Both the position numbers and the translations under genes were made by a program. The notes under the pieces were generated by a model. The model worked only from the letters and a program-made list of their open reading frames with translations. It made no database searches and had not been told where the DNA came from. Shown one piece after another: positions 1,496 to 49,690 of a stretch of DNA of 64,000 nt. Source of the stretch: Rhizophagus irregularis (taxonomy: Eukaryota > Glomeromycota > Glomeromycetes > Glomerales > Glomeraceae); NCBI RefSeq assembly GCF_026210795.1, contig NC_089457.1, positions 992,001 to 1,056,000 of the forward strand, read 5' to 3'. Within the stretch, counting starts at the first letter, position 1. The number at the start of each line of letters is the position of its first letter.

Positions 1496-3445
1496 GTGAT
1501 TCGCAAGGCTTTGGTTAAGCTCTTTTACAATCACTTTGCTCCTTTGCTCGCTTTCCACCATGTTCTTCAAGGAGGAAACTTCGCAGATTTACCTGGAGAT
1601 TCCTGCCGTGATCCTATTATTACACTGGAATCTATTATCCATGATTCAGTAGTCACTAAACAATTCTTATGGATTCTCTCTCAAGACATTTCAAAGGCGT
1701 TTGATTCTGTTGATCTATCCATGTTGCGTTTTGCTTTACAACGCTTACGTCTACCAGAAAATACTATTCAATTCTTATTTTCTTTATTTATGTCACATTT
1801 TAATCGTGTCATTACTGCACATGGCCCTACTTTGCCATATAGAGTTAGAATTGGTATCAACCAAGGTGAAGTTATCTCTCCACTATTATGGGTTATTTAT
1901 TTAGACCCTTTGCTCACTGCCCTCAAAAATGAAAAGAAAGACCCTTATTGTTTGGTTTCTCCAATGGCTTCCGATATTGTTTCATCAAACTCTTGTTCTC
2001 TGGATGTTTTAGAGATTAATAATTTGGTGTTTATGGATGATTCCACTTTGATTTCTTCTTCTAAAGAGGGAATGGAACATATGTTGTCTATCACTGAAGA
2101 ATTTTATTGTTTGAACAACACTTCAGCCAATCATAATAAATATGTTCTAGCCACCAATGCAGTTGCTATTTCTCGAGATTTATCTTCTATAGCCTTTAAT
2201 TTGATGACTTCATCACTCAACACTACTACCAATATTAAGGTTACTCCTATCCCTATGTCTTCATCTTTCCATTTTTTGGGCGTTTGGTTTAATATTAATG
2301 GCTCTAGGAACTTTATTCGACAACAACTCAAGCGAGAATGTAATTCTTTCTCTGCAATTCTCCGCCCGGCGAAATTGACTGTTCAGCAAGTGGTATACCT
2401 TTATAATACTGTTTTGCTTCCGAAATTGGATTATCGAATGCAAGTTACGCATTTATCTGAGGTTGAATGTTCTACTATTACTTCTTCGATTCGTGCTTTA
2501 GTTAAACACAAGGCCAAATTATCACGTTCTGTTCCTAATGTAGTGTTATATTTAACCCAAGCTTTGGGTTTGATCAATTTATTTTCATTTCAACAACAAA
2601 GTCATTTTACTAATTTATTTTTGTTAGCAAATTCTTCTTCTGTTTTTATGAAGTTACTTTTTAATTATAGGTTGAGATTTATTCAATTTTATTGTTTAAT
2701 TCCTATTTCTCCTTTGATGGTTTTGGATTGGTCTTATTGGTCTTCTCTTATAATTTTTAAACAAGATTATATCGCTAATACTTTAGCTTCATTGCTCTCT
2801 ACTCCTTTCCGTCTGTCACGTGCTATTTTATCGCCTGTGCCTGATTTGACCTATCCTAATGGCCATACTCCCATTTATCAATGTCTTTCTCTGGATGTAT
2901 TTAAGGCCAATTTAACGAGGCTTCGGAAACGTAGCCTTTTTTACCTTTCGCAACTTTTGACACCTCAAGGAACACATTTACTCTCTTGGTCTGTCATATA
3001 TGCTAACTCTATTCAAAAGCGTGGTAATGCCCGTCTTCTCAATTGGTATAAAAATCTTTCTGCTAATGTCACGATTCCAGATAAACCTGGTTTGTTGAAA
3101 GATCAATTTATGATTAATCAACGCCCTGTGAGCCAAATTGCAAAAGAACTTGCCCTTTGTACTCCTCCTTCTGGTTATAAGAAGAATTGGATTGTCACGA
3201 TGAATGATGATGGCTTTCCTATATTTGGTAAACAGATTCAGCTTCAACCCAAGCATTCCATCTGTACTATCGTACATTGGACTTCAGACTGCTTATCTCG
3301 TCCGAGTGACTTGATCACTTTACAACCTTGTCCTGGCTGCAACTTGAATATAAACAAATCTTCGTATTCAAAGAAATTTGTTGCCACTAGCGCTGTGTCC
3401 TCTCCTATTCGGTCTCTTTTAGTCACTCATGGATTTTACCTATGA
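1496..3445 (+). pseudogene. LINE reverse transcriptase core and thumb
   Basis: Long open frame with the ordered RT signatures: SQDISKAFDSVDLSMLRF (first catalytic Asp) near residue 60, GINQGEVISPLLWVIYLDPLL near residue 125, and FMDDSTLISSS (the YADD box, here FMDD) near residue 178, followed by thumb and connection regions. The start listed is only the first Met after the upstream nonsense codon; the true coding frame runs in from the left. The stop overlaps the next frame by ATGA at 3442-3445. This could look like a stop/restart junction but is more simply a frameshift between RT and RNase H. It would copy the element RNA at the nicked target. Confidence 0.88.
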
Positions 3446-7106: not shown

Positions 7107-9407
7107 ATGACTGATCACATAGAAGATTTACCCATTAAAATGAAAAATAGAGGAGGTCGGCCACCTAATAGCATTTGGGAAGATATTAATAAAGGAGAAG
7201 CTGTTGGTTCTGGCAAATTTGCCGCCTCCTGCAAGTACTGTAAGAATACATAGTCACGCGGTAAAGTTTCAAAGCTCGAAGAGCATCTTTCAAACCATTG
7301 TCCAGATGCGCCAGCAGCAGTTGTTAGAAGGTATATGACTAAAGTAATGGAATGGCAAGATAAGTCTAAGTCATCCAAAAAAAGAAAATACTCTGAAGGT
7401 CAAAGTAACATGGATGATTACCATGATTCAACAGAGCTTAACGAACAAAGATGTACACGAATTAATCGTGCATTAGTTAAATTTTTTATTGCGTGCGGAA
7501 TTGCGTTTAGAGTAGTGGAACATCCCTTTTTCATCAATTTTATAAAAGAGCTTAATGCCGGGTACAATACACCAACAAGGAAAGTATTAGTAAATCAACT
7601 ACTTGAACGTGAATTAGCTCAAGTGAACTTCAAAGTTAATTCTGAGCTTGAAAAGGAAACGAATTTAACGTTAGGTTTGTTAAATTAAATAGGCTATCAT
7701 ACATCATTTTTATTTAATCTTACTTACTATATAATATTAATTTATAATTTAGCCTTTGATGGTTAGACGTCTGGTACACATCGTTCAATTTGGAACTTCA
7801 TTGTAATGACTCCGTCGCGTAAAGAATATCTTTATCAACTTTCTGATTTGTCTGAAAATTTGCACACTGCAGAATATCTAGTTACGGTAATTGAAAAGGT
7901 TATAGAAGGTATTGGAGAAGATCGAATATGTGCTGTAGTTTCCGATAATGCGGCCAATGTTCGTAATGCATGAAAAATTATACATGAGAATCATCCAAAG
8001 ATTGAGAATGTGCGATGCGTTGCACATTCTATCAATTTAATTGCATGCGTCATCGTCAAGGAGAAGTTTGGGGAACATTTATTAAAACGTGTTAATATTT
8101 TGACAACCTTTTTTAGAAGTTCTCATCAGGCTAATGCAAAACTTGCTCAAATGATTAAAGAAAAAGGAATTAGTGGAGGAGGATTAAAATTATATTGCAA
8201 GACACGCTGGACTACTGCTAGTGAATCCGTAAATTCAGTAATAAATTTGGAATCAGCACTAGAAGAAATGGCCAGCGATCACGATAAAGTGCTAACAAAT
8301 GATAAAATAAAACCGATTATTCAATCGAAAATTTTTTTTTCAAATTTACGAGTTCTTGGATTTGTTTTGGATCCTCTAAGAAAAGCGGTACTTTCATTAG
8401 AATCGAGAAGAGCTACACTTGCAGATTGTTTTCTGAGCTTGGCAAGACTTGCAGTTACATTAAAAAAGTTACCCAAATCATTAAATCCTGCATTTCGAAG
8501 TCATTGTATCAAAGTAATAAATGAAAGATTTGATGAGTTCGATGATGATAAGTATATTACTTGTTTTTTTATGGATCCCAGATTTAGAAACGCGCCACTT
8601 AAAAAATGCGCCCTCATGAGAATTATCAAATGTGCAGCTTCAATCAGAAAAAATTTAGGTTTCGACCGTTACGAAGCTGAAACTTTATGTGATCAAATAC
8701 AGAAATATATTAATGAGCAAGAGCCATTTGACCTAGATATCGGTTTTGCTAAAGATAATCCCGTGAATTGGTGGAAATATATTAATACCGAACCAGAACC
8801 AGATGTCCTGCCAAGAATTGCAAGTTATCTATTTGCAATATGTCCTAACTCAGCAACTTGCGAATGTGGATTTTCGACTTTAGGATGGCTATTTCATAAA
8901 CGTCGCTTAAATCTTAATGTGGATAAACTAGAATCCATGTGCAAATTAATTTTGTATTGGAAATCCAATTCAAAAACTGAACTTGGATTTTATAAAATTG
9001 ATCAAAAAAAGAATACTCGTCTTAGTGATGATGAGATCAATATACGTATTGCAGAAGCTTTTGCAGAAGATAACGATGAGGAATATAATGAAGAGCAAGC
9101 TTCTACTCAGAGATTAACTACAAGCGGCGAAACAATACCTGAAGACAATTGTCGTGTAGTAATCGAAAGTCTATGGATTGATCAATTTGTTAATTTATCG
9201 CATGATTCAATTACTAGTGAAATTGGTGATATTCTAAGAGATATATTGGATGATTCAGATGAAAATAATGCGGAAGATGATGAAGTTGATGATAGTGGTA
9301 ATAACAAGAGACCCGGAGAAGGTGACTATGATTATGATATAGATGATGTATTAGGTATGGATGACGGTGATAATAATGACGATAATTATGATGATAATGA
9401 GGAATAA
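7107..9407 (+). pseudogene. hAT transposase (BED finger + hAT core), two exons, three nonsense codons
   Basis: Exon 1 is 7107-7674 and exon 2 is 7753-9407, joined in frame by a 78-nt GT-AG intron. Exon 1 begins with a BED-type finger (SCKYCKNT, stop, then LEEHLSNHC). Exon 2 opens with FDG-stop-TSG, the conserved hAT DGWTS block holding the first catalytic Asp, then VVSDNAANV (second Asp), VRCVAHSINLI, a helical insertion, and the C-terminal dimerisation block ICPNSATCECGFSTLGWLFHKRR with the likely catalytic Glu. A long Asp/Glu-rich tail follows. Stops are TAG 7251, TAG 7764 and TGA 7971, all at positions where Trp is expected. The protein would have cut and pasted its own element; this copy cannot make it whole. 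Confidence 0.88.
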
Positions 9408-20067: not shown

Positions 20068-20627
20068 ACATCTGAATGTATAGAGAAAATTTGAATCAAC
20101 TATTGGTGATTGTTCACTTCATTTCGTTGGCATTACAATTATCATTATCACGCTAGGTGAAGCATAAATAAATTTATTGCAAGCTACAATGTATATAAAA
20201 TGTAAATCATGAAATAAACAATATATTTTGCGCAACTTATTTCTTCCAATGCATATTAAAATACTAGGAAACGGGAACCGTTGGAGCGTCCGAAGTATCA
20301 CTGGTCGAATGATGAGGTATCGGGTTATAAATTATAATGATGTCCGATATGGCATGATAGGTATATTGGTATCCGTTATTATTTATAAAACTATATCGGA
20401 AAATTTTAATAGGTCATTGATATTTCTAAAATCATATCGGGAAAAGATCGACTCTACTGAATGATTATCAGTAATCTGATCTTTTTTTTATTTCTTTTAG
20501 AAACGAATTCGTTCGTTTTTTTTTCAACAATGGGGCGTGTCGTTCATTAAATTTAATATATGATCAACTATTTTTAACTATTTTAAACTAAAATTAGAAA
20601 AAAGTATCATTTATATTTTAAGAAACA
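20068..20627. other. Spacer between kinase gene and array A
   Basis: Several GATATCGG-type short phrases occur around 20310-20440, possibly a small degraded inverted-repeat element. The frame at 20228-20464 has no protein features. Confidence 0.35.
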
Positions 20628-22330
20628 ATGACTGAACGGTCAGGTCAGTCTTTCAGTAGACTTATAGGAATGCAAGAAGTGCGGAAGGTTAGTATATTTT
20701 TTGTTTTTTTTCTTTTTCTTTTTTTTATTTTTTTCACCTTATTCTTATTTCTTTAGGAACGGGTCTCTTCTCTTGGAACGGCGATTTTGGTGACTACTGA
20801 AAATGCGAAAGACACGGAAAGTTAGTATATTTTTTTTCGTTTTCTTTTTTTAATTTTATTGTTTTTTTCTTTACTTACCTAATTCTTATTTCTTTAGGAG
20901 CGAGTCTCTTCTCTTGGAACGGCGATTTTGGTGACTACTGAAAATGCGAAAGACACGGAAAGTTAGTATATTTTTTTTCGTTTTCTTTTTTTAATTTTAT
21001 TGTTTTTTTCTTTACTTACCTAATTCTTATTTCTTTAGGAACGGGTCTCTTCTCTTGGAACGGCGATTTCAGCGATTTCTAAGAATGTGAAGACGCGGAA
21101 AGTTAGTATATTTCTTTTTTTCGTTATTGTTTTTTTCTTTACCTATCTTAATTCTTATTTCTTTAGGAACGGTCTCTTCTTTCAGGATAGTGATCGGGAA
21201 TAGAAGTAAATGGGAAGTGGGTGTGTACGGGTCGGGTGTATTTATTTTAATTAAGAAACGTTCTCTTCTTTTTGTAGGATATTATTAATCAAGCTGATCT
21301 GAGTCGAGTCAAGTATCAATTTAGACTCGGATTGACTAGACTCATCGACTCGTTCGGAGCACTAGGCTTCAGTTCCGATTCTTGGGTTTGGATATATAGG
21401 TGAGGAAGCGAACTTTAAAAATTTTATTTTTTTAAAAAAATTTATTTAACCTTTTTTTTTCTTTTATTTTGTAGGTTTCGGCTTCAGTTTTTGGGTGTTG
21501 GATAGGTGAGCGAAGCTTCAACACTTTAAAACCTTCATTTTTTTTTAAAATTTATTTGATTTTTTTTTCTTTTACTTTGTAGGTATCGGCTTTTATTTTA
21601 TAGATATCGGCTTTGGCTCTTGCACGGCACGTTGGATAGGTGGGTTTCGAAGTTTCATTGCGAAACTTCTTTATTTTTTTTAAAAATTAATTAACATTTT
21701 TTCTTTTATTTTATTTTATAGAAATCGGGTTTTAGATTATTAGATGTTGGATTGGTGAGTTTTGAAGTTTCGTTTCGAAACTTCTTTAATTTTTTTAAAA
21801 ATTAATACCATTTTTCTTTTATTTTATAGATATCGGGTTTAGATTCTTGGATGTTGGATAGGTAGGTTTCGAAGTTTTGTTTCGAAACTAATTTTTTTTA
21901 CTTTTTTTTCTTTTATTTGTAGATGTTGGCTTCGGTTCTTTAACTTAGGGTAGGTGTGTTTTGAAGTTTCATTTCGAAACTTCTTTATTTTTTTTAAATC
22001 TTTATTTTTTAAAAAATTTATTAATTTTTTTTTCTTTTATTTGTAGATATCGGCTTTGATTTCAGGGTATCGGATATGTAAGTTTCGACTTTGGATAGGG
22101 TTTCGAAGTTTCATTTCGAAACGTTAATTTTTTAAAAATTTATTTTCTGTTATTTGTAGATATTGGATTTGTTGGATAGGATGAATTTTGAAACTTTAAA
22201 AAATATTAATTCTAGGCGTGATAGCATGAAGTGAGTTTTTAACAAATCTTTTATTTACTTACATTTCATTTTTTCTTTCATTTTTTTAGGTGACCAGTTC
22301 TTCGGATCTTTGGATGTGTAAATTTCTTTT
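20628..22330 (+). repeat. Intron-like tandem array A (plus strand)
   Basis: Begins with an ATG-led exon-like piece (20628-20687, MTERSGQSFSRLIGMQEVRK) followed by GTTAGTAT...TTTCTTTAG. Exon-like pieces of 64 nt at 20757 and 20898 and of 63 nt at 21039 are separated by T-rich intron-like pieces; the 77-nt intron-like pieces at 20821 and 20962 are identical and the unit is 141 bp. From 21290 a second type follows: short pieces related to GTATCGGCTT..TTGGATAG, 5' sites GTGAG/GTAGG/GTGGG, hairpins such as GAAGTTTCATTTCGAAACTTC, and TTTTGTAG/TTTATAG ends. Splicing in order shifts the frame and meets stops, so no long protein is supported. Confidence 0.72.
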
Positions 22331-22335
22331 GTAAA

Positions 22336-22400
22336 TATAATAGATAGATATTAGATAGGATATTAGATAGGACATTAGATAGGATATTAGTAGATAGGAC
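22336..22400. repeat. Short tandem repeat (ATTAGATAGGAT)n
   Basis: Five or so near-copies of ATTAGATAGGAT. It provided the insertion site of the element that starts at 22401. Confidence 0.8.
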
Positions 22401-24894: not shown

Positions 24895-27800
24895 TAGTGT
24901 TGTTAACGGTTTGGCTTAGTTCGGCTTGAGGCCAAAGTCAAGCCAAGCCGATAAAAAGTCAAGCCAAACCAAGCCAAATCCTATCGGTTTGAAGGTTCAA
25001 GCTGAACCAAGTTGAACCAAGCCAAATTAAGCTGCGAAGCTGATAGAACTGATGGAGCTGATGGAGCCGATGGTAACCGAAGCCGATGGAACTGATGGAA
25101 CCGATGGAGCCAATGGTAAAGATTCAAGCCGTAAAGGTAATAGTCTAATAAAATATAGAACCAATAGAACCAATGGACTGAACAGAATCAATGAAATTCA
25201 ATTTAATCAATTATTAATTTATTTTATTATATATAAATTTATAATTTAATGGGTTTCAAAAAAATTAAACTTTATTTATTATAATGTAACTAGTTATAAT
25301 GTAATTACAAATGAAATGAAAAATTAATTATTTAATAACTTTATCCAAGAATTTAAACACATGCATGCTTCAATTGCACCATCCTCCAGTCTATTTCTTT
25401 TTTTACTAATTAATTTTCCAGATTTAGAAAATGCTTGCTCGCTAGGAATAGAAGTAGAAGGTATACAAATATGATCACGCGCAATTTTGACCAATATTGG
25501 ATATTGTGATTTGTGGGTTTTCCACCATTCACAAGGATCTATATCTTTAGGTTCTACAGGGATTATCAAATATTCATCAATTTCATTACGTTGCAAGTTA
25601 CCTTTTTGCTTTTTTTGAAGCATGAGTTCCATAATTCCTAATGCTTTTCTTTTTTCACCTGATGATACATCTTCATTAATTTCATTCTCAGGATGATCCA
25701 GATTCTCATAACTATTAAACTTGTCTACAAGTATTTGTTTTATCATGTCTTCACTTATATTGTTAGGAAGAATTTGTGTTTTATATCAAGAATTTAATAT
25801 TAAAGCTAAATAAGCACTTGAATTATAAAGATTCTCTTGTATAGAATCAAATTTGTTTTTCATTTCTTTAGCAATTTCTTTTATCCATAATATTCCAGAT
25901 TTTTTTATAGTTGTTGTTATATGATCTAGTAAATGGTCCAAAAAAAGAAGTAAAGTTCCAAGAGTAGGGTAATTAGAACCTGACATTACTTCAGTAAATT
26001 CAAAAAATAGTTTTAAATAATCACAAAAAAGGCTAATTTCTTTCCACTCGTCATCAGTTAAATTCAGATTCCCAAAATTATTATGTAAAGAAATTGCTGA
26101 AGTAATTATTACTTTATTTGCAAGAAAAGATTCTAGCATAGAATACATACTGTTCCACCTAGTTTTGACATCCCATATTAATTTCTTGTATTTAACTTGT
26201 AACTTTTGTGCTAAAGAAAATAATACTTCTTTTTTTTTTGGTGACCTACGTATTTCCACAACAAAAGCTCGTACTTTATCAATAACTCTTTGAAAACTTT
26301 TTAAACCAGAATTTACCACAAGAGCAATTGTGTGTGCACCACATCTAATTACATTAAGATCAACTTGTAAATTAGTTTCAAGTGCAGTTGAAAGTAATTT
26401 CATTGCAGTAACTTGATTAGCACCATTATCAATTGTAATTGTTGAAGCTTTTGTTGCAATAGAAAAATCTTTAAATATTTTAAGTGTGACTTCTTGAATT
26501 TGTTGTCCGGTATGAGGATGAGAAAATCTTTGAAAGGCAATTATCACATGTTTTAACTTCCACTCATTGTCAATCTAGTGTGCCGTAAGTACCATGTATG
26601 GTGCACCAGTGTCCGAAGTTCACATATCTGAAGTGAAAGAAATTCTTGAATCATTCTCCTAAATAATAAAAGATTTTAACTTTTAAGTCATAATTAAAAA
26701 TCAATACAATTTATAAATTAAAATAAATTTACCTGAAACATTTTTATAATGATCTTTTTATTTTGCGCATATTTATTATCAATTTTTTTACGAACAGTTT
26801 GTCGTGAAGGAACTTGAAATTCAGGATTGAAACTAGCGATCAATTCTTTAAAAGAAGGACTATCCACAACTCTAAATGCTTGACATTCTATAATTACCCA
26901 ATTAATGAAATTATCTAAAATATCTAAATGATTTTTTCCTGGCAATGTTGTACGTGTTTGAGAATTATTGAATTCTGCTTCTATGGAACCTATTCCTTTA
27001 GGCTGAATCTTAGAATGTTTTCTTTTGAAATGATCATTAAGAGTTCCTGTAGAAGTCTTTGCGCTATATTTCTGATCACAAAAATTGCACTTTACATGTA
27101 ATACAACACCTTTATCATCAATCACCTTTTCATAATACTGCCAAACAAGACTTGGTGCATGGACTGGAGGTAAGTTTGGACTGTTTGATTTTTTTTCTGA
27201 ATTTAATGAAACTTCTTCATCGGTTTTCTGTATATCAGTAATATCACCTAATTCGGAAGTTAGAATGATTAGATCCATTTCAACTTCACAAGAACCTTCT
27301 AAATTACTCATGGTAAAAAAAGTTTTCTTATTTTTATAAAGAATTTTAAATGAACGAGCAATGCAAAAAAAGATAATTTAAAAAAAAAGATAATCTTGAT
27401 TTTGATCATTTGATGATCTGATCAAGTGATCATTTTTTGCTAGACGCTCAGCAAAATCACCTACTATTTAATAAAAAACTCCTTGGCCGCTTAATAATAT
27501 AATTCTTATTTATTATTAACTTATACTGCTGTACTGCATCAAAAAAAAATTCTAAATCTGACAGGTTACAGGTATTGATATTGAGTTCTTTTCTTTTCTT
27601 TTTTTTGTTTCTTTTTGCTAATTACGAACTTCTTCTTCAGATATTTTGGCTCTTTGGCTTGGAGATGACTAAGATGAAGAGATAGAAGGTTTTTCTTTAT
27701 TATTTCCTTTTCTTTTCATTTCCTTTCGTTAATTACAAACTTTGCTTTAAGACATTTCAGTTCTTGGGCTTAGAGACAACAGAATGGACAGGTATTAAAG

Positions 27801-28090
27801 TTTTTTTCTTTTTTGCAAAACAGAATAAAGAGATTTATTTTTTTTATTGATACAATGATACAATGAGTCAATGATACATTTAAATTTAAGTTTTAATGCT
27901 TGTAAAACCTAAATCAGGTGATCAGCTCCATCGGCTCCATCAACTTAACCGGCTCAAGCCAAACCGAACCGTGGTTTAATTTCCCTCAAGCCGAGCTAAA
28001 CCAAATCAGCTTCTAACCTGAAACTGAGCTGAATTGGCTCCATTGGCTTGGTTCAGCTTGGTTCGGCGTGGCTTGGACTTAACAACACTA
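24895..28090 (-). mobile_element. hAT transposon with perfect 8-bp TSD
   Basis: TSD TTAATTAC at 24887-24894 and 28091-28098. Ends TAGTGTTGTTAACGG and complement of TAGTGTTGTTAAGTCC. Subterminal blocks repeat AAGCCAAGCC / GGCTTGGTTCGG and GATGGAGCC phrases on both sides. The minus-strand transposase lies between them. 27540-27870 inside the element holds T-rich spacers and short exon-like pieces that I cannot assign. Confidence 0.93.
25324..27311 (-). pseudogene. hAT transposase with BED finger, broken
   Basis: Minus strand. Exon 1 (27311-26733) has a BED finger: SLVWQYYEKV, VKCNFCDQKY, LNDHFKRKHS. A 75-nt GT-AG intron (26658-26732) follows. Exon 2 reads, after a one-base frame change, TSDM-stop-TSDTGAPYMVLTAH-stop-IDNEW, the hAT block with the first catalytic Asp, then IDNGANQV (second Asp region), RCGAHTIALVV and VKTRWNSMYSML. 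A TGA at 25788 sits in an ILDPRYK-like motif. The last piece (25746-25324) is the dimerisation domain CEWWKTH...STSIPSEQAFSKSGKLISKKRNRL. Stops TGA 26622 and TAG 26577 are both at Trp positions. Not functional. Confidence 0.87.
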
Positions 28091-28309
28091 TTAATTACTT
28101 TACATGTAGTGATTCAATTTGAATGATCTTTGCTCCCTAAGGTGATGCCAACCTTTATCTTTAAAATAAATTTAAAATAATTCGTTTAATATATGTAGAT
28201 GTTTAGGAATCATCAATTATATTATTAATATAAAATTTTATAAGTTTGATAAAATCTGATATAAAAAAATTTATTAAATACCTGTAGATGCAAGCTACAC
28301 GAATGAAAT

Positions 28310-28570
28310 TATATTCATTTGAAAGAGAAAATTGAGGTCTATCTAATAAGCCTAAAATCGAATGAATTGAATCACTGGATTGTGAATAATTACGTCTAAT
28401 ATATTTATTTTTAATTTTTAAATTTGATTTGACTTTGATCGTTAATTACGCCTCATCCAGTGATCCAATTTTCCTGATCTTTGATTCTTACGATAGAGCA
28501 AATTCTCAGCTTTCAAATGAATGTAAAATGATGACGTTAGCATATCTCCAGGAATAATAATGCACGATTT
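28310..28570 (+). repeat. Direct repeat, copy 2, with partial inverted continuation
   Basis: ATTCATTTGAAAGAGAAAAT to GTTAATTAC parallels 24770-24894. The tail TTCAAATGAATG near 28519 is a partial inverted copy of the start, so this block may itself be a foldback repeat. Confidence 0.6.
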
Positions 28571-29209
28571 TGTCACCTGCATAAAGTCCGATCTGAAAAT
28601 TTTATTTCTTACCAAAAAATGCTTTCATAAGAGAATCCCAAATTCTTTTACTTTATTTAAAAGATTTTATTTGCCATTTAAGGATTTTAGTAGAATAAAT
28701 CTAATAAAATAATTTTAAAAGATAAAAAACAAATATATAATTAGTTATTTTGAAAAAAAAAATATCTTATTATTCATTTTACAACTATTTTACATCATAA
28801 TTATTTTTTATTTGCATGTATTTTTTACAAAAAAAAAACAATAAATTAAAGCTAAAAATTATGAAAAAATATGTCTTATCTATGTATATAAAATATTAAG
28901 TTTTTTCTTTTACTTACCACTTAAAAATAACTGCTATATTTGCTTATAAACTTTTTTGTCATATTTAATAAAAGTGAATAGAAAAATGATGGAAAAGTGA
29001 TGGGCAGTAATGGGGAAAAAAAAGTGGTTATTACCGTTATTTTTGAATATTGATTTAAAAAATTTTTTTTATTTTTTATTAAATCAGAGTTACGTAAATA
29101 TGTAACACATATTTAATTTAGATTTGTGTAATGTTAATCTTACTAAAATATTAAATTTTTATAAAAATCTTAATTTAGACTAATTCCAAAAATTGGCACA
29201 TATGTATTA
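28571..29209. other. AT-rich spacer
   Basis: Nothing recognisable. Confidence 0.4.
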
Positions 29210-30440: not shown

Positions 30441-30960
30441 CAGAACTCAAGTTTATTCTCGTTACAGCAATAATCTGTGATTTTGTACGTAGATTTCAGC
30501 TTTTTTTTATGTGAATTTATGCAGATGTCTGCGATTTTGCAGATTTCAGCTTTTTTTTATGTCAAAATATCAATTTGATTGCGATTTCATCACACAATTA
30601 ACTCTTAACACTTTTAACACTTAAACTTTGATTAACTTTTAAACTTTAATTAAAATTTGATTTATTACCTAAATAATTTTTTTATGACACTCTTTAAAGA
30701 AAAAAATTTACAAAACTTTAAAGAAATAATTTTTTCTACAACACTTTTTAAATTTTACAAGACTTTAAAGAAAAAATAATTTTTCTACACTTTTTACTAA
30801 AAGAAAAAACTTTACAAAATAATTTTTTCTACCACCCTTCAAAGAAAAAATTTTATAACTTTAAATAAATAATTTTTTCTATAATACTTTTTAAAAAAAT
30901 AATCTGTTAAAGATTCCAAAGAAAAAAAATTTGTTAAAATTTTTATTATTAAGCTTTGAA
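30441..30960. repeat. Subterminal-type repeats and AT-rich lead-in to array B
   Basis: GTACGTAGATTTCAGC and GATTTTGCAGATTTCAGC phrases at 30487-30560, related to AAATCTGCGCAGA phrases at 34505-34690 on the far side of array B. Between 30600 and 30960 there are imperfect repeats of AAAGAAAAAATTTTACAAAACT. Confidence 0.5.
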
Positions 30961-31199
30961 GCTTGTTAGAAAAATTTTTTTTTTAAAAAAAAAATTTATT
31001 TATGGGGTTCGGGTAAATTCGTCCAACATTCAGCACATAATCTGTAATATGCATATTGAACTAAAAAGACATCGGACTCTATTATCTCATACTTTCATAA
31101 AAAACATTTTACTTCGTAAGCAGAAGTATTCTATTTCAAAGGTATTTATTCCTTCAAATTTTTTATTAATATTATTTAACAAACGTTAGCAAATGTTCG

Positions 31200-32233
31200 T
31201 TTTATTAGTCCAGAATACCAAAGGTATATTCTGAACTCTCCATTTTTGAAGGTAACTTTCAAAATTTGTAATTTTCTTTTTGTTTCAAGTCCAGGATTCC
31301 CATTTCGAAAGTTACCTTCAAAAAAAATGTTATTCTTATTAATTTCATTAACAAACATTGTTAACGTTCGTTTATTAAGTTCTGAATGCTGAAGTACAGC
31401 TCTGGACTTTATTTTGAAAGTTGGAGTTAAAACTTCGGTAAATATTTTTATTTTTTAGGTCCTGAACGCTGAAGTACAACTCCGTACTTCATTTTTGAAG
31501 GTAAAAAACCTTCAAAATTTTTTTTTATATTTAATTTTAATGAACGTCACTAACATTTGTTTTTTATGTTTTTAAGTCCTGGACACCGAAGAACGGCTCT
31601 GGATGTTTATTTCGAAGGTAAAAATCTGAAATATTTTTTTTTTATATTTTAACTTTAACGAATGTTAGTTACGTTCGTTTTTGTATTTTATAGGTCCTGA
31701 CGCCAAAAAATGGCTCAGACTCTTATTTTGAAGAAAAAATCTTCAAAATATTTTTTATATTATTATTTCAACGAACGTTAATTAACGTTCATTTTTATAT
31801 TTTTAGGTCCTGGATGCCGAAGAACGGCTCCAGACTCTTATTGCGAAGGTAAAAATCTTTGAAATATTTTTTTTATATTTTAACTTTAACAAACGTTAGT
31901 TACATTCATTTTGTATTTTATAGGTCCTGACGCCAAAAATGACTTCAAACTTTAATTTGAAGGTAAAACCTTCGAAAAAAAAATATTTTGTTTTATTAAC
32001 TTTATTGACGAATGTTAACTAATGTTTCGTCTTATTTTTTTTAGATAAAGGAAGCTGAAACTGAGTTCTAGGCTCCTATATCAAAGGTGAAATAAACCTT
32101 CGAAAAAAAAAATTAATTTTTTTTAAAATTAATTTATATTGATGAACGTTAACTAACGTTTTGTTTTTTTTAATTAAAGGAAGCCGAAAAACAAGCCAGA
32201 CTTTCATATCGAAGGTAAAACCTTAAAAAAAAA

Positions 32234-32288
<55 letters not shown>

Positions 32289-34330
32289 TATTTTTTAACT
32301 TTATTGACGAACATTAACAATGTTCGTATTTTTTTTTTTTTTAAGTAAAGGAATCCTAAAACGAGTTCCAGTATATCAAAAGTAAATTTAACCTTCAAAT
32401 TTTTTTTTCTTTTTTATTTAAACGAACGTTTACTAACATTCGTTATTCTTTTTTTAGGTAAAGGAAAGAACTTCCATATCAAAGGTAAAATCTTCAATTT
32501 TTTTTTTATTATTTTATTTAATGAATGTTATTAATTCTAATGTTCATTTTTTTACTTTTCGTAGGTATAATGTACAAGAAACCAAAAGGCAGGTTCCGGT
32601 CTCCTATTTCGAAAGTAAGGCTTTAAAATTTCATTTTACTTTTTTTCTTTTATTTTAGTAAAACGTTTACTAATGTTTCAACTTTCTTTTTTGTAGGTCT
32701 ACGGCTTTCCAAAGCTTCATTTTGAAGGTTATATCCTTTATATCCTTCAAAAATATATTTTTTTTATTAGTTTTTTTTTTACGAACGTTAACTAACGTTC
32801 ATTTTCATTTTTGTAGGTCCAAGACACTGAAGGTACGTGTCTCGTACTTGATTTCGAAGGTAAATAACTTTCAAAAAAAAGGGAGTCTTTTTTTTTAACG
32901 AATGTTCACTAACGTTCGTTTTTCTCTTCTTTATAGGTCCAGGATGCCGAAGGACTTTAATTTTGAAGGTAAACTTCAATTTTATTTTTTATTTTTTATT
33001 CTTTTTTTATTTATTTTAACAAAACGTTATTAACGTTTCAATTTTTTTTAGGTTTCTGGCTCTTCTGAACTCTCCTGAACTGAATTTCGAAGGTATTTCT
33101 TCAAAATTCTTTTATTTCTTTGTTTTATTTTATTTTTGTAAAAGAACGTTAACGTTCTTTATTCTTTTTTTTAGATTTTCAGCTCTCTGGTTCTAGCCTG
33201 AACGGAATTTTCAATATGGTTAGTTTCGTAATGAACTTTTTGTTACGGAACTAATTTTTTTTTTATTTTATTTAAACGAAATGTTACTAACGTTTCGATT
33301 TCTTTTTCTTTTTCTGGTAGCCACCTGGATTGGGCAAAATTTTGAAGGTAAAATTTGAAATTATTTTATTTTTATTTTTTATTTGAACGAAACGTAGACT
33401 AACGTTTCAATTTTTACTTTTTGCAGGTTTACGGCTTCTGGATGGAATTTCAAAGGTAAAATTCCTTCAAAATTCTTTCATGTTTTTTTTTTATTTAGCG
33501 AAACATTTTCTAACATTTCATTTTTTTGTAGGTCATCATCATTCCCAAAAAGAATTTTGAAGGTAAAACTTCAAAATTCTTCATTTTTTTTGTTGTTTTT
33601 AATTTGCGAAATGCTTACTAACGTTTCAGTTGGTTTTTTTTGTAGGATTTTTGTTTTCTGGCTCCTGGACGAAGGAATTTCAAAGGTAAACTTCAAAATT
33701 CTTATTTTTTTGTTACTTTAATTTACGAAACGTTTACTAACGTTTCAGTTGTTTTTTTTTGCAGGATTTTGGTTCTTCGACTCCTGGATGAAAGAATTTT
33801 GAAGGTAAACCTTTAAAATTTTTTTATTTTTTATTTTATTTTTCTTTAACGAACATTCTACTAACATTCATTTTTCCTTTATTTTTTAGGTTCTGGCTCC
33901 ATTTGAAAGAACTTTGAAGGTATAACACTTTGAAGTTTCTTTTTTTTAATTTTCTTTAACGAACGTTTTACTAACGTTCATTTTCTTTTATTTTTTAATA
34001 GATCTCATCTCTCATTTGAAAGAACTTCAAAGATAATGACACTTCAAAGTTCTTTTTTTTAATTTTCTTTAACGAACATTTACTAATGTTTGTTTTTCTT
34101 CTATTTTTAGGTCTCAGACTTCCATTTGGAAGAACTTTGAAGGTAATAATACTTCGAAATTATTTTTTTATTTTTCTTTAACAAACGTTTTACTAATGTT
34201 CATTTTTCTTTATTTTTTAGATCCTGGGATTTCATTTCAAACATTTCAAAAGTAATAACTTCGAAATTTGTAACAAATATCTCTGATTTTCTATTTTGTT
34301 TTTTGTTTGTTAGAATCGAACCAACTGGAA
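31200..34330 (+). repeat. Intron-like tandem array B (plus strand, about 25 units)
   Basis: Units of 113-118 bp in the left part, e.g. exon-like starts at 31459, 31577, 31694, 31807 and 31924. A typical unit is GTCCTGGATGCCGAAGAACG...GCGAAG (42 nt), then GTAAAA with the self-complementary TTTGAAGGTAAAACCTTCGAA zone spanning the 5' site, a second hairpin of type ACGAACGTTAACTAACGTTCG containing CTAAC, a T-rich tract and TTTATAG or TTTTTAG. To the right the hairpin becomes GAAACGTTTACTAACGTTTC with a perfect TACTAAC. The last piece (from about 34312) leads to AATAAA-like sequence near 34434. Several exon-like pieces are 42 nt, but stops and indels occur. A long A-tract lies at 32238-32283. Confidence 0.85.
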
Positions 34331-34728
34331 CAATATTCCAAACCATTAACAACATGTAAATGTGCAGTAAAAAGATAATGAATAGCAATGACTAGTAATA
34401 GATTTCAATTGTATTTGTAAACTTGTTAATATATAATAAAAAAGTAATTTTGATTATATAAATAAATTAGTAATTAATGCAATAAATTAATTTGTATTAT
34501 TGTGACGCAGATTTTTACTAAAAAATTGCTGAGATATTTCGAAGGTTTTTTATTTAAAAATCTGCGCAGAACTTTGTTATTTATAAAATCTGTACAGTTT
34601 TTTATTGGATTTTTCCTCTAATGTTTTGCGCCAGGGTATAAGATCCGCGCAGATATAATTTCTGAAAATCTGCGCAGATCTGCTCCCCAAAAAATTTCGT
34701 GATAAATGATACTTCAAATGATTAATTT
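34331..34728. other. Region right of array B with AAATCTGCGCAGA repeats
   Basis: Palindromic phrases ATCTGCGCAGAT and variants at 34505, 34558, 34648 and 34670 mirror those left of array B and may be subterminal repeats of an element carrying the array. Its ends could not be fixed. Confidence 0.45.
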
Positions 34729-36119: not shown

Positions 36120-38290
36120 CAATCATGTCTAGTGCCAAAGTAAAAGACAGTAAAACCTAAAAAAAAAGAAAAAAATGAAGTGTTAATAAACGTTTTGTTG
36201 AAAAAAATCAAAATAAAGAAACATTTGAAGTATATACCTTTAAAAAATAAAAAAAATGAAACGTTAATATACATTTCATTAAAAAAAATCAAATAAAAAA
36301 AAGTATTTCGAAGTATACCTTTGAAATATTGAATTCTAGTTTGTCCAATGAGTCACCGAACCTAAAAAGATATAAAAAAAATAAAATATTAATATACGTT
36401 TCATTGAAGAAAATTAAAATAAAAAACAAACATTTCAAAATATAACTTCGAAATGTTCCTTTCGTTTTCCCCATCCCTTTCATTTTTCCATTCATTTTCA
36501 CCTTCCTCTTTCGTTTTTTCCTTTTATTTTCATTTTCTCTTCCCTTGTATTTACTCTTTTTTTTTGTTTTACCCTTTTTCCTTTCATTTCATCTATTCCT
36601 TTACGTTTACCTTTTCCTTTTCGTTTTATCCTTTCCCTTAAAGAAAAATAGAAAAAGAAACAAAAATTTAATAAATTAGATAAACAAAAAAAATGAAAAA
36701 TTCCCCTAATTCCCTTTCTCTTATTACCTTTCACCAAAGTTCAGGTCGTAATTTCATCCAGCATTCCTACAAGAAGAAAGAAAAGAAACGTCAGTTAACG
36801 TTTCTTAAAAAAAATAATTAATTATTAAGTTTCGCAACACAATGTTGCGAAACTCACTGGTTCATTTTGAACTCCATCATCAAACATCTGGCGTTCTTAT
36901 AAAAAGTAAAAGAAACATATGTTAGTATCATTTCTTTTTTAAAAAAAAATAATAATTAAAAAAATAAGTTTCGCAATATTGTGAAACTCACCGGTTTATT
37001 TCGATTTCTATTATTCAAACTTCCAGAACCTACAAAAAGTAAAATAAAGAAATGTTAGTTAACATTTTTTATAATAAAAAAAAATAAAAAATTAAGCTTT
37101 GCAATGTAATATTGTGAAACTTACTGGTCGTTTCTATCATCCTAATGTCTGGAACCTACAAAAAGTAAAATAAAGAAACGTTAGTTAATGTTTCTTATAA
37201 TAAAAAAAAATAAAAAATTAAGTTTCACAATGTAACATTGCAAAACTTACCAGTCATTTCCATCATCTTAACATCCGGAACCTACAAAAAGTAAAATAAA
37301 GAAACGTTAGTTAACGTTTTATTTAATAAAAAAAATAAAAATAAAGTTTCGCAACACAATGTTGCAAAACTCACTGGTTCGTTTCGAACTCAGAATCCAA
37401 ACATCTGGCGTTACTACAAAAAGAAAAAAGAAACGTTAGAAATGTTTTCTAAAAAAATAAAAAAAAAATTTAATTTTTTAAAAAAGGGTTTAAAGAGTTT
37501 CACAACTTACTCTTTAGTTTTCTCATTTCCCAAACTCAAACACCATAAATCTTACAAAAAAAGGAAACATCAGTAATGTTTCCTAAAAAAAAAAGAATTT
37601 AGAAAAAGTTTCAAGGTAAACGCCTCAAAACTTACCATTTCATTTTCTAAGTTGAATACGCTAAAAAGACCTATAAAAAAAAACAAAGGATCGTTAAAAA
37701 CGTTCTTTATAAAAAAAAAAATTTTTGTTTTCAAAACGAAAAGCTACCTTTCAGTTCTTCGTTTCCTAAAATCAAAATACCAGTAGCCTACACAAAAAAA
37801 AGAAAGGAAGCATTAGAAATGTTTCCTAAAAGAAATTAAAAAAAAATAAGTTTTAAAGCAAACTCGCTTCAAAACTTACCCATTTCATTTCTGAAGTCGA
37901 ATACCGAAGACCTAAAAAAAGAAAGTATAAAAAGCGTTAGAAATGCTTCTAAAAAATAAAAAAAAAATATTAAAAGTTTTGAAGCAAAATGCTTCAAAAC
38001 TTATCCATTTTCTGGCTTTCTGAAGATGAATACTAAAAGACCTAAAAAAAGAAAGTATAAGAAGCGTTAGAAATGCTTTTAAAAAATAAAAAAAAATATT
38101 AAAAGTTTCAAAGTGAAACGCTTCAAAACTTACCCATTTCCTGGCTTTTTGAAGACAAAAACTGAAAGACCTAAAAAAAGAAAGTATAAGAAGTGTTAGA
38201 ATGCTTCTAAAATTTTTTAAAAAAAAAAATATTAAAAGTTTTGAAGTGAACGCTTCAAAACTTACCATTTCGTTGGAAGATTCTGACACT
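36120..38290 (-). repeat. Intron-like tandem array D (minus strand, about 18-20 units)
   Basis: Read on the minus strand from 38290. Exon-like GTCTTTCAGTTTTTGTCTTC...GGAAATGG (37 nt) is followed by GTAAGTTTTGAAGCG...CGCTTCAAAACTT, a hairpin that begins inside the 5' splice site, then AAGCATTTCTAACGCTT (second hairpin with CTAAC), ACTTTC and TTTTTTTAG. Further on the units change to GTAAGTTTTGCAATG...CATTGTGAAACTT and GAAACATTAACTAACGTTTC, ending TACTTTTTGTAG, with exon-like pieces of 31 nt such as GTTCCGGATGTTAAGATGAT... Lengths are not multiples of three, so no protein is implied. Confidence 0.83.
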
Positions 38291-39739: not shown

Positions 39740-40409
39740 GGCGCTAGTATAAATCCAGAAAAATTTTATAATATTATTCTTAAAGCAGAACAAATCTGGA
39801 AAAACATGGGACATAATGAGGAATCATGTGGAAAACTACTTACTCAAATGCGAAAATACATAAAGAAAAAAGCACCATTTAACCAAAAATTTAATAAATC
39901 AGACACACCAATGATCTGGTGGGATACAGCAAATACAAAAAATGAATAGGAGTTGCAAGCCTTGGCACTTCGTCTTTTTGCTATAACTCCACATAGTGCC
40001 TCTTGTAAGCGGTCTTTTTCAGTTTTATGTTGATTTTATGGACAGAGGCGTGCCAATTTGGCTATAGATCGGGTAGAAGAGATGTGCAAATTGCACATTC
40101 ACTAGTCGAAATAAGTTAAATCGGACACGTGATAAATCAGCTGAAAATCAACTAAATTCAGTTAAAATCATTTCCGATTTATGACAATCAGAAAAATTTG
40201 CACAATTCGGCATATCTGATTTACGGTCAATAAGAAATTTGATGTACATGTGTAGAACCGAATTGCTGGTTTTTTTTTAAAGTTTAAATTAAACTAAGTT
40301 AAAAAAAAATTTAAACTTTTTCGTTCTTTTCTCTCCTTCCCTTCTTTTCCCTTTCTTCTTCCTTTCCCCCTCTTAATAACATTAAAAAACAAATTTTTTT
40401 TATTTAAAT

Positions 40410-41932
40410 TAAATTTTCTTTATTTGTTTTGTAGGTATCGGATTTGCATTGGATCAGTTAGTAAGTTTCAAAATTTCGTTTTGAAACTTTTTTATAAAAA
40501 ATTTTTTTTCTTAATTAATTTTCTTCATTTATTTTGTAGGTATCAGCTTCGCGTCTTTGGATATTTCAAATCGGTAAGTTTTGAAATTTTGTTTCAAAAC
40601 TTTTTTTAAATAATTTTTTTTTAAATTAACTTTTCTTCTATTTTGTAGGTATCAACTTCAGGACTTTGGATTTAATCGGTTAGTTTCGAAGTTTCGTTTC
40701 AAAACTAAAAATTTTTTTCATTTTTTTTTACTTAATTAATTTTTTTATTTATTTTGTAGGCTTCATGTTTTTGGATTTTAATCGGTAGGTTTCAAAGTTT
40801 CGTTTGTTTCAAAACTTTTTTAAAAAAAATTAATTTTTTTTAATTAACTTTTCTTTGTTTATTTGTAGGTATCGACTTTAAGACTTTGGATTTTATCATT
40901 CGTTTCAAAACTTAAAAAAAATAATTTTTTTTTTTAAATTAACTTTTATTTATTTATTTTGTAGATATCGGTTTAATTTCTTTGGCTTTAAATTGGTAAA
41001 TTTCAAAACAAAATACTTCAAAATTTTTTTTTTAAAAAAACTTTTTATTTAAATTAACTTTTCTTCGTTTACTTTGTAGGTATCAGCTTTAGGACTTAGA
41101 TTTTGGATCGGTAAGTTTCAAAACTTTGTTTCGAAACTTTTTAAAAAAAAATTTTTTTTAAAAAATTAATTTTTCTTTGTTTATTTTATAGGTATCGACT
41201 TTGGGTTTTTGGATTTGATCGGTAAGTTTCAAAATTTCATTTCAAAACTTTTTTTTTAAAAATATAACTTCTCTTCGTTTATTTTGTAGGTATCGGCTCT
41301 GGGTCTTTAGGTTTTGGATTAGTTGGTAAGTTTTGAAGTTTCGTTTCAAAACTTTTCTTCTTTAAAATTTTTTATTTTTTTTTATTTATAATTTTTTTTT
41401 ATTTATTTTGTAGGCTTCGCGTCTTTGAATATTTCAGATCGGTAAGTTTTGAAATTTTGTTTCAAAACTTTTTTAAAATAAATTTTTTTAAAATTGATTT
41501 TCTTCTATTTTGTAGGTATCGACTTTAGGACTTTGGATTTTGGATCGGTAAGTTTTGAAATTTCATTTCGAAACTTTTTTAAAATAATTTTTTTTAAAAA
41601 AATTAACTTTCTTCGTTTATTTTGTAGGTATCGACTTCAGATCCTTGGTTTTATACATTAAATAGGCTGGTAAATTTCAAAAAATTTTTTTTGTTGAAGA
41701 GACGATTACTAATCGTTTCTTCTTATTTTTTGTAGATTTCTTTCGAATATTGGATGAATGGTAAGTTTCGAATTTATTTCGGAACTTTTAACATTTTTTA
41801 GTTGAAGAGACGAGAGACGAATACTAACCGTTTCTTCTTTTTTTGTAGATTTTTTTCGAATATTGGATGGATAGTAAGTTTCAAATTTATTTTGGAACTT
41901 TACTTTTCTTATTTAAGAAACAATTTATTAAT
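40410..41932 (+). repeat. Intron-like tandem array C, left part (about 14 units)
   Basis: Units of about 100-125 bp. Exon-like pieces of 30-36 nt such as GTATCGACTTTGGGTTTTTG...GATCG are followed by GTAAGTTTCAAAATTTCATTTC...AAACTT, a hairpin starting inside the 5' splice site, then T/A-rich DNA, AATTAACTTTTCTTCG and ATTTTGTAG. The last units have GACGATTACTAATCGTTTCTTC before TTTTTTGTAG. The array is cut at 41932 by the 8.1-kb hAT and resumes at 50027. Confidence 0.85.
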
Positions 41933-42987: not shown

Positions 42988-44851
42988 CCGTAAAGTCCTG
43001 AATATAAGCAACCCCCGAATATAAGCAACCCCTAATTTATATCTTACCCGAATATAAGCAACCTTCTGAAAAATTTGTAAAAAATATATACATATATTGA
43101 TTATATGGTAATTTTATTGAAATTAAAGCATAAATGTCATAGAATTATCAAAATTATGTATAAAATGTTTGTAAAAAATTAAATGCGAAACTATTAATAA
43201 TCCCTTTTACACCCAATATTTTTACAAAGTATCATCAATATCCGAAATTTCTAATTCTTCATGATCACTATCTAACGAATCTGTTATACCACAACTTACA
43301 AAAGAATTAATTATGGTCTCGTTAGATATATTTTCCCATGCACGTTTTACCCAATTACAAACATCACTATACTTAGCACGTCTAAGGTTTCCTGCAGTAG
43401 TTTCTCCAGCACCACCATTTGCCATCCACAAGTGCCATTCTTTATGTAATCTGTCCTTGAATGGCTTATTTATAGCGACATCAAGTGGTTGACAGATGCT
43501 TGTCAACCCACCTGGGATAACTGCTAAATCAACATTATTATCACGAAACTTTGTTTTAACAGATTTTTCAAGGTGGCCCCTAAAAGAATCATAAACAAGC
43601 ATAGTTGGATCTCTAGATCGATTATTGTTAAAATAGTCAATATAATTGATCATTAATTTTGAATCCATCCAACCATTCTCTTGGAACCAAACCACCACAC
43701 CAGATGGAATTTGTTCACCACGTCCTAATCTTTTTCCTTTGAAAATACATATTGGTGGCAGTTTGGTTCCATCTGTATTTTAAAAAAAAATTTTTAAGAT
43801 TATTTTGCTAGAAATAGGGTTTACTATAGTACTTACCAGCAGCACAAGTAAGAACAACAGTGAACCGATTTTTTTCGTTACCTGTCCCACGAATATGAAC
43901 AGTTTTTTCACCTGTTTGATTAACAGTAAAATTACTCGCCATGTCAAAATATACTGGGGTCTCATCCATATTGAAGATATTACACATTTCGTATGATTTT
44001 TCAATTCTAAGGTGAGTAACAAATCGGTAAAAACTTTCTAACAATTGTTCAGTTTGTTGTGGAAGTTTTTGTGAAATCTTTGTATGACGTCGCAAGGATA
44101 ATTTTTGTCGCTTCATAAATACATATAGCCAACGATTAGACATCTTAAAATCGTTTGTTAAATTCCCATAAAGAACTATAATATCCTGATCTCTCAAAAT
44201 TTCTAGCATCTTGACTCGTATAAGTGAATAGTTTACAGCAAAACCCTGTTTCCTTTGTTCAATTATCCAGTCTGAGAGCTTTTTCTCAACTTCAGGATAA
44301 AAAACCCTTCTCCCTGTGCCAACTTTCTTAATATTTCTGTTTATTTCATCCGTCCAGCTTATACTCGCCTTAACCTAGTGTCCAACCATACTTTTGTTAA
44401 TTCCAAAGTGAGTTGCCGCGTTATTTTTTCCATACTCCTTTGCATAATTAACAACTTCTTCTTTTTGTTTAATAGAGTATGAAGTTCGTTTAACATTACT
44501 TTTGAAGGCTTTACGTTTGACAACTCGTTTATGTTTGGCAACTTGTGGCATTATTTATTGTGGCTTTTCTCTGTGTAAAAAAATATCGTTTTTGATAACT
44601 TGATAAAAGTTATCTAAGAGTTGATCAAAAAAGTTATACGCGTTTTAAGGATATGATTGATGCTGTGCACGAATGATTCACAAAGAATTGTGAAACCGCA
44701 ATAATTGAAAATTACGTTATAAATCATTTTATTTGAAAGTTTAAGCTAAAGATTCTTTTTCCAGAATTATATTATGTCCCAATATTTAAATTTACCCGAA
44801 TATAAGCAACCTTATAACAAAAATAGGTTGCTTATATTCGGGACTTTACGG
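42988..44851 (-). mobile_element. pogo/Tigger-like DNA transposon in a hAT intron
   Basis: Inverted ends CCGTAAAGTCC(T/C)GAATATAAGC, flanked by TA at 42986-87 and 44852-53. GAATATAAGCAACC is repeated just inside both ends. The element sits between the 5' splice site (GTAAGT at 42954) and the 3' site (TTTTTCAG before 44910) of intron 2 of the host hAT gene, so it would not change that gene's mRNA if the intron still spliced. Confidence 0.93.
43222..44551 (-). pseudogene. pogo-type DDE transposase (HTH + DDE), two exons, one TAG
   Basis: Minus strand: exon 1 44551-43837, 64-nt GT-AG intron, exon 2 43772-43222; 422 codons. The N-terminus is basic, then an HTH/psq-like segment (TSYSIKQKEEVVNYAKEYGKNNAATHFGI), a CENP-B-like region (VEKKLSDWIIEQRKQGFAVN..I), and the catalytic domain with FNMDETPVYFD (first Asp), MLVYDSFRGHLEKSV (second Asp) and GLTSICQPLDVAINKPFK (third Asp), then an acidic tail. 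Only one defect is visible, TAG at 44377-44375 in GH-stop-VKASISW, where Trp is likely. This is the best-preserved transposase in the window and may be recently active. Confidence 0.9.
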
Positions 44852-48834: not shown

Positions 48835-49690
48835 CAAGTTATACCTTGGGTAAGTTGTAATGGAGGAAGTTTTACACCATTTACTTAAAGAAATGTTAAT
48901 AAACATTATTAACGTTTCTTTTTTATTTTATTTTTATAGGGAACGGCTTTGGAGCTTGGGTAAGTTGTAATAAAGGGATTTTTGTGTTATTATTTAAAGA
49001 AATGTAAATAAACTGAACATTCTTAATATTTCCTTTTATTTATTTGTATGGAACGGCCTTGAAGACCTTAGGTAAGTTGTAATAGGGGATTTTTGCGTTT
49101 AGAAATGTTAATAAACTGAACGTTATTAACATTTTCTTTATTTTTTTTTTAGTAAATCGTATTCTGTACAAATGTAAGGTAGATTCCTAACAAATAAACG
49201 ACCAGTTTCGCCTATAGATTCTTCATGTGGGACGTCAGCGGTTTGATAATTTGAATTGTTATTCGTCCCTTTGTTGGATATTATGTGTTCTTCATCATGA
49301 TTCATATGATAGGATAGCGTGCCTTTATCTCCCTTTTTTCTTTATCACTTTCAGTTCGCTATCGTCACTAATTCACTATCATTAGATTTGTTATCAGATG
49401 AAGTATAGGAACGGCCTTTAGATGACAGTATGTGCATTAGAGAAGGGGGTTTGATAATTTTTTTTTAGAAACGGCCTTTGGATAATGAACAGGCCACGGT
49501 ATGTGTATTAGAAAGAGAGATTTGATAATTTTTTTTAAGGAACGTTTATTAACGTTTCCTTTCTTTTTAATTTTTAGAAAATGGCCTTGGGATAACTCAG
49601 AAAGCTGAACAGGCCGTAGTATGTGTGTGAGGGGGGTTCATTAATTTTTTAAGGAACGTTTCCTTTTCTTTGTTTATAGGATTAAATCAT
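48835..49690 (+). repeat. Intron-like tandem array E (plus strand), inside the 8.1-kb hAT
   Basis: Exon-like pieces of about 20-40 nt (GGAACGGCTTTGGAGCTTGG, GAACGGCCTTGAAGACCTTA) are each followed by GTAAGTTGTAATA, a GAAATGTTAATAAAC..ATTAACGTTTC hairpin, and a T-rich tract ending TTTTTATAG or TTGTATG. Later units are looser (GTATGTGTATTAG after GCCACG). About seven or eight units. It lies between two blocks of CAGGTCAGGT repeats. Confidence 0.7.

Follow-up and report, generated by a model that had tools for sequence, protein, structure and literature searches.

In this study, we show that array B, a tandem array of intron-like modules in Rhizophagus irregularis DAOM197198, is not a local satellite but makes up the interior of a DNA transposon with dispersed copies. 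It is likely that the array forms the body of a non-autonomous Plavaka/CACTA-like transposon which is composed of tandem spliceable modules, is spread by a partner transposase, and has been under selection for spliceability. The window, that is, the whole stretch of 64,000 nucleotides analyzed here, corresponds to C29:992001-1056000, and the genome searched comprises 146.7 Mb in 32 contigs. Array B gave 122 matches in its own genome, counted as pieces. The copies have common left and right ends, which are inverted (CATCGGGAAATTTTTT), and both ends were seen in 24 copies. Target-site duplications of 2 bp accompany 19 of these 24 copies and are absent in five; among 19 newly fetched end pairs the duplication is present in 15, with varied sequence and a chance expectation of 0.088 for each pair, and among five copies found earlier it is seen by eye in four (TG, AC, AA, and TA) and fails in L027. 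The left ends L067 and L080 had no fetched right end and were left out of the 19 pairs. Moreover, the end pattern occurs at 179 places in the genome when up to two mismatches are allowed, and the reversed control at none. Seven array copies contained no open frame longer than 151 residues. Since array B sits inside dispersed transposons, the likeness between its copies reflects descent.

In the window, homology to dispersed copies extends from about 30467 to 34698-34706, and the element is placed at 30467-34704 on the plus strand. Its left terminus is missing or decayed and its right terminus is decayed; a side-by-side comparison of 15 right ends identified what is left of the terminal inverted repeat on the right at 34689-34704 (+), which reads AAAAAATTTCCCGATG in better kept copies. 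Tandem Repeats Finder measured periods of 110-119 bp over 31445-34227, in agreement with the units of 113-118 bp given in the preliminary description. Alignment of the window to the paralogue L009 placed 20 introns, spanning 75-130 nt, and their exons at 31849-34220 (+); GT is kept in 19 introns, AG in 18, and both in 17 (introns 3, 4, and 19 fail), so that the earlier claim of GT-AG introns in register holds. The modules 5′ to these (31201-31848, +) appear more decayed by eye and lie outside the 20-intron alignment. Intron 15 (33563-33645, +) may serve as an example, with its GTAAAA donor, a palindrome over the exon end and donor, a TACTAAC branch site, and the acceptor TTTTTTGTAG. A putative terminal exon with a stop lies at 34314-34378 (+), and its reading ends in TTCKCAVKR, an ending also found in four of 13 public proteins inspected (P0002, P0006, P0007, and P0020).

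The paralogue L009 comprises 21 exons and 20 introns. The introns span 75-103 nt, all 20 have GT and 19 have AG, and the best branch match of L009 is CTAAC in 14 introns and TTAAC in six. Its exons (42, 40, 42, 41, 42, 33, 51, 31, 43, 32, 41, 44, 27, 29, 30, 40, 40, 30, 31, 32, and 31 nt) range from 27 to 51 nt, a wider spread than the roughly 40 nt between introns first noticed. Both GT and AG are present in 20 introns of L010, 17 of L011, 20 of L012, and 15 of L016, where three more could not be aligned. Examples of well-kept copies are those in L010 and L012, and C24:3571628-3576374 and C5:4424992-4428860 also serve as examples. The most regular copy by eye is L089, whose unit consists of a 42-nt exon and a 77-78-nt intron. 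At about 4.0-8.0 kb of L089, a further element is seen by eye within the module array, with inverted GGGCTGATCACTGACGCTCATTTC-like sequence on either side; it has open frames, and the three scanned gave no Pfam match. Other repeats were also noted. A 1.1-kb repeat lies at 28090-29208 of the window, and two copies of 98% identity flank the array at L023 (1489-2604 and 7126-8245). The window further holds transposon genes at 1496-3445, 8010-9407, 25786-26547, and 43222-43698, comprising a reverse transcriptase (PF00078), two hAT pieces which score below curated cut-offs, and a DDE_1 endonuclease (PF03184). No Rfam match was found in the window.

The scoring of units against shuffled sequence that the preliminary description had proposed was carried out with a generic fungal splice model, not trained on the arrays, and it left the non-random nature of the splice signals unrefuted. 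The score of array B was 129.8, and none of 20 whole-array dinucleotide shuffles exceeded 26.7; the corresponding values, each set against the highest of 20 shuffles, were 142.5 and 28.4 for C/D, 50.9 and 29.7 for A, 43.6 and 27.4 for E, and 36.6 and 20.3 for F. Because whole-array shuffles ignore tandem copying, single units were then shuffled and repeated. Eight of ten hand-picked units, most of them chosen as intact modules, were matched by no more than 8 of 500 shuffles. When successive units were taken without selection, and a unit was passed if at most 10 of 200 of its own shuffles reached its score, the share fell to 20 of 32 units in the array families, compared with 2 of 46 control units from six other tandem repeats read on both strands. 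The passes were 0/3 in the 141-bp part of A, 2/2 in its 115-bp part, 4/9 in B, 2/2 in C, 2/3 in D, 9/11 in E, and 1/2 in F. These counts leave the first part of A unsupported, and the generic model supports B, with its GTAAA donors and its decay, only in part. Taken individually, the introns of L089 score no better than introns in shuffles (9.37 vs. 9.74). The claim that one plan recurs in arrays A, C, D, E, and F on both strands thus stands for C/D on the minus strand and, on the plus strand, for E, F (about three units), and the second part of A, and finds no support in the first part of A. The arrays measure about 9 kb in all, slightly less than the 10 kb first estimated, and to call their unit sequences unrelated was too strong, as B and C have a common AACGTTAACTAACGTT-like core by eye.

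Like array B, the other arrays are not confined to the window. Array A (20660-22340, +), with two unit types of 141 bp and about 113 bp, was found at no fewer than 20 further places in the genome, and arrays C and D (36140-38290, -), whose modules have donor-side and branch-side hairpins, at tens of further places. Array F (48843-49155, +) holds about three modules, of which one has lost its acceptor by eye. Array E (40400-41900, +) has modules with a donor-side hairpin and relatives at many places, beside CACT(A/G)GTC ends, as homology and end motifs show; several of them terminate in CACTGGTCAGAATAGTCCA or CACTAGTCGAAATAGTCCA. Among the 19 best matches outside the window, a basis distinct from the 20-place set which holds previously noticed places, at least 12 have an inward-facing CACT(A/G)GTC end 0.39-1.21 kb beyond the array, with 100 of 156 ends considered. 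A possible left end of the E element lies at 40100-40113 (+; CACTAGTCGAAATA), the first 14 bases matching the ends of L041 and L045; the right end was not found within the window. CATCGGG pairs enclose two of the E-type matches (C15:2877731-2884730 and C19:3258190-3262418). A motif search also placed CACTAGTC at 40100 and CACTGGTC at 20299, 0.3-0.4 kb upstream of arrays E and A, as possible left ends. Seed matching within the window for inverted ends of A, C/D, and E gave nothing convincing. The ends of the A and C/D elements were sought and not found, and only B and E are therefore tied to transposon ends.

The relationship to Plavaka elements rests on shared ends. The Plavaka transposase domain PF18759 has 123 matches in the genome and none in 14 control genomes. 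Among the 100 of 179 ends listed, at least six PF18759 matches lie inside pairs of B-like ends (on C3, C5, C6, C8, C17, and C23), the ends of these potential partners being the same as, or very similar to, those of the B type, and in at least three of the pairs (C6, C8, and C23) the left and right ends are of the very subtypes found in the array elements. Transposons of the CACTA/CMC group make target-site duplications of 2-3 bp and have ends beginning with CACTA or CACTG. The B-type ends start with CATCGGG, that is, CATC and not CACT, and those of the E type with CACTGGTC or CACTAGTC. The 4.1 kb inspected of the roughly 7.0-kb C23 element (C23:931600-935700) contain a gene on the plus strand whose introns look ordinary, and no module array was found there. 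No support emerged for a derivation of the array from the plus-strand gene of such a transposase-bearing element: protein matches reach E values of 0.02 or worse, and at the DNA level the matches lie within AT-rich tandem sequence near C23:934.9-935.5 kb.

Public gene models splice these arrays. The joined exons of L089, used as a protein query, recovered five public R. irregularis proteins, and a profile built from four of these recovered at least 30 among the best 7992 candidates scored (P0001-P0030), all named R. irregularis and coming from several strains and projects. P0015 maps exactly to L011 and P0019 to L010, each with 13 GT-AG introns, and 48 of their 52 splice sites coincide with module borders; the four others are one internal donor, the same in both models, and one acceptor in each, 1 and 8 nt downstream. 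Both models skip whole modules, giving introns of up to 545 nt, and P0005 by eye reads through an intron. The annotation of this assembly was built with Illumina RNA reads and refined with Nanopore cDNA reads, according to the description in PMC10234402; this paper also gives PRJNA885267 as an accession for RNA reads. P0015 and P0019 begin in the middle of the array, differ in the modules that they skip, and leave the last intron unspliced, which makes the array models look partly ab initio. From the splice signals and these gene models we infer that the modules are spliceable and may be spliced in vivo. The public uncharacterized proteins appear to derive from transposon arrays and not to be host genes; one of them is named 'adhesive plaque matrix protein-like'.

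Three other explanations were weighed. That the array is an ordinary satellite, with splice signals that arose by chance in a single unit and were multiplied by tandem duplication, is extremely improbable. It is true that tandem copying multiplies any chance feature, and that 12 of the 32 unselected units, including all three 141-bp units of A, do not beat their shuffles. Yet units from several families pass far more often than the controls, the copies are dispersed with inverted ends and target-site duplications, which already made a satellite unlikely for array B, and the public models splice the arrays. A protein-coding gene family borne by the transposon, whose micro-exons would encode a 14-residue repeat (for example, VLDAKERLRTFISK), with skipping to vary its length and the window copy a pseudogene, is less extreme but still unlikely. 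In its favor, the 18 exons found by pattern in L089 are all 42 nt long and stop-free in frame 0, with stops in frames 1 and 2; the public model P0001 reads such exons in frame 0; models exist from several strains; and the best frame of the joined L009 exons has five stops, where letter shuffles average 11.8 with a lowest value of 5. Against it, none of the three frames is open across the joined L009 exons (5, 6, and 11 stops), and shuffling the exon order gives a mean of 5.0 in the best frame, so that order is immaterial. Changes among 26 exons of 42 nt are spread evenly over codon positions 1, 2, and 3 (26/24/28; without CpG sites 14/11/14). Exon lengths modulo 3 leave remainders 0, 1, and 2 in 8, 6, and 6 of 20 L009 exons and in 4, 5, and 1 of 10 E exons, one cut first exon having been dropped, and C/D offer three clean exons (37, 31, and 31 nt). 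None of the eight array-related proteins scanned had a Pfam match. Protein constraint on the array exons was thus not detected, and the evidence is against present constraint.

It has also to be considered that palindromes in the DNA are the functional part, through binding of a transposase or host protein or through array expansion, and that the splice signals ride along. By eye, an L089 unit has two perfect palindromes, of which the first spans the junction of exon and intron and the second lies at the branch site. Donor sites in general, and in B also branch sites, sit in palindromes; for E and C/D, the hairpin on the donor side is contained within the intron. After removal of units whose exons exceeded 80 nt or whose introns fell outside 60-110 nt (leaving 20/20 units for L009, 6/9 for C/D, and 11/12 for E), arms from the same unit paired better than swapped arms in 17/20 donor and 16/20 branch sides of L009, in 5/6 and 5/6 of C/D, where one of the six kept units is mis-parsed, and in 9/11 and 6/9 of E, where two branch sides had no splittable hairpin. 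Folding z-scores below -2 relative to shuffles were obtained for 18/20 L009, 3/6 C/D, and 4/11 E units, and on the antisense strand for 19, 4, and 8, which is no weaker; mean antisense and sense values were -4.12 and -3.59 for L009 and -2.58 and -1.19 for E, and three L090 introns folded for comparison gave -0.12 to -0.65. Broken pairs in 17 sequences, flanks included, were A.C in 553 cases and G.T in 505. Without an excess of G.T breaks there is no sign of pairing as sense RNA, and together with the equally strong antisense folding this leaves an RNA role of the hairpins unsupported. The location of the signals, the antisense folding, and the A.C breaks all speak for a function of the palindromes as DNA, but three points speak against it: in diverged units the pairing persists while the sequence changes, which is not the behavior of a fixed binding site; acceptors and T tracts are kept despite their position beyond the palindromes; and the branch-side palindrome is missing from most E modules. 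We regard this possibility as very unlikely, and retain the reading of a transposon whose modules were selected to be spliceable.

Once inserted, the copies drift without clear protection of their splice signals. In six aligned copies, changes per cell at CpG and other sites were 0.179 and 0.022 in exons and 0.135 and 0.009 in introns, and C>T or G>A accounts for 66/86 of the non-CpG changes in exons and 25/60 in introns. With base-specific rates in these six copies, observed over expected changes were 0.54 for donors, 0.97 for acceptors, and 0.89 for branch sites, with counts of only 5, 5, and 6, and 1.22 for exons, 0.92 for introns, and 0.65 for the 3′ flank. Hence the conservation of signals between diverged units would date from the active lineage. 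The earlier suggestion that the units are or were spliced holds to the extent that full signal sets lie in register beyond chance in most families and that public models splice at module borders.

These findings suggest the following course of events. An exon-intron module inside an ancestral element would have been amplified head to tail, and whole elements then spread by the transposase of full-size elements with the same ends. In an RNA polymerase II transcript, the modules would be removed as ordinary spliceosomal introns, with whole modules variably skipped, turning a 4-kb repeat into a short mRNA-like product, sometimes with an open frame. In the active lineage, selection may have kept the spliceability of the units and not a protein, and each copy would decay after insertion, above all through CpG loss. 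It is a more speculative and rather unlikely idea that the lineage, by spreading spliceable arrays whose skipping assembles new open reading frames, supplies strain-specific orphan genes and ready-made introns, with the paired donor and branch palindromes setting module use. In PMC11075540, some two thirds of the transposable elements of R. irregularis are called unclassified; for one such group, the present analysis provides an identity, points to a likely partner transposase family, and reveals a clear structure. A set of public 'uncharacterized' proteins likewise finds its explanation in transposon arrays. Should the modules be spliced in vivo, they would provide a natural laboratory for introns and orphan genes arising from tandem duplication and transposition, with about 20 related introns per transcript.

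No description of an element of this kind emerged from the literature searches, which covered open-licence papers. Micro-exon genes of Schistosoma have many tiny symmetric coding exons and vary their products by skipping. The arrays resemble them in their many tiny exons and in the skipping seen in models, but the array exons are asymmetric, their lengths not being multiples of three, and without coding constraint, which makes this near idea of the preliminary description a poor fit and places the arrays outside that class. SP7-like effectors are described as R. irregularis repeat proteins in which a conserved intron precedes the repeats (PMC11333574); the array-related proteins are also R. 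irregularis proteins with repeats, and the SP7 repeat-end motif Y[KR]Rx[AP]x[AP] occurs in none of 30 of them. Introners, the other near idea, are mobile DNA with spliceosomal sites, and many families are reported to show inverted ends or target-site duplications (PMC9860276; PMC4457414). The array elements are mobile DNA with spliceosomal sites as well, yet they fit this class poorly, because an introner is one intron landing in a gene and one array element holds about 20 introns plus their exons. Plavaka has been placed in the CACTA/CMC/EnSpm superfamily and reported as prevalent in DAOM197198 and other R. irregularis strains (PMC11075540). With these transposons the array elements share inverted ends, a 2-bp duplication, and ends common to PF18759-holding elements; unlike them, they have a module array as interior, ends of the CATCGGG type in B, and, in the seven copies read, only short frames. 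Tgm-Express is described as a CACTA element with captured gene fragments, and splicing of this cargo gives new combinations of exons (PMC1947982). The array elements are probably also CACTA-like, with a cargo that can probably be spliced, but in place of gene fragments this cargo consists of a single module type repeated in tandem.
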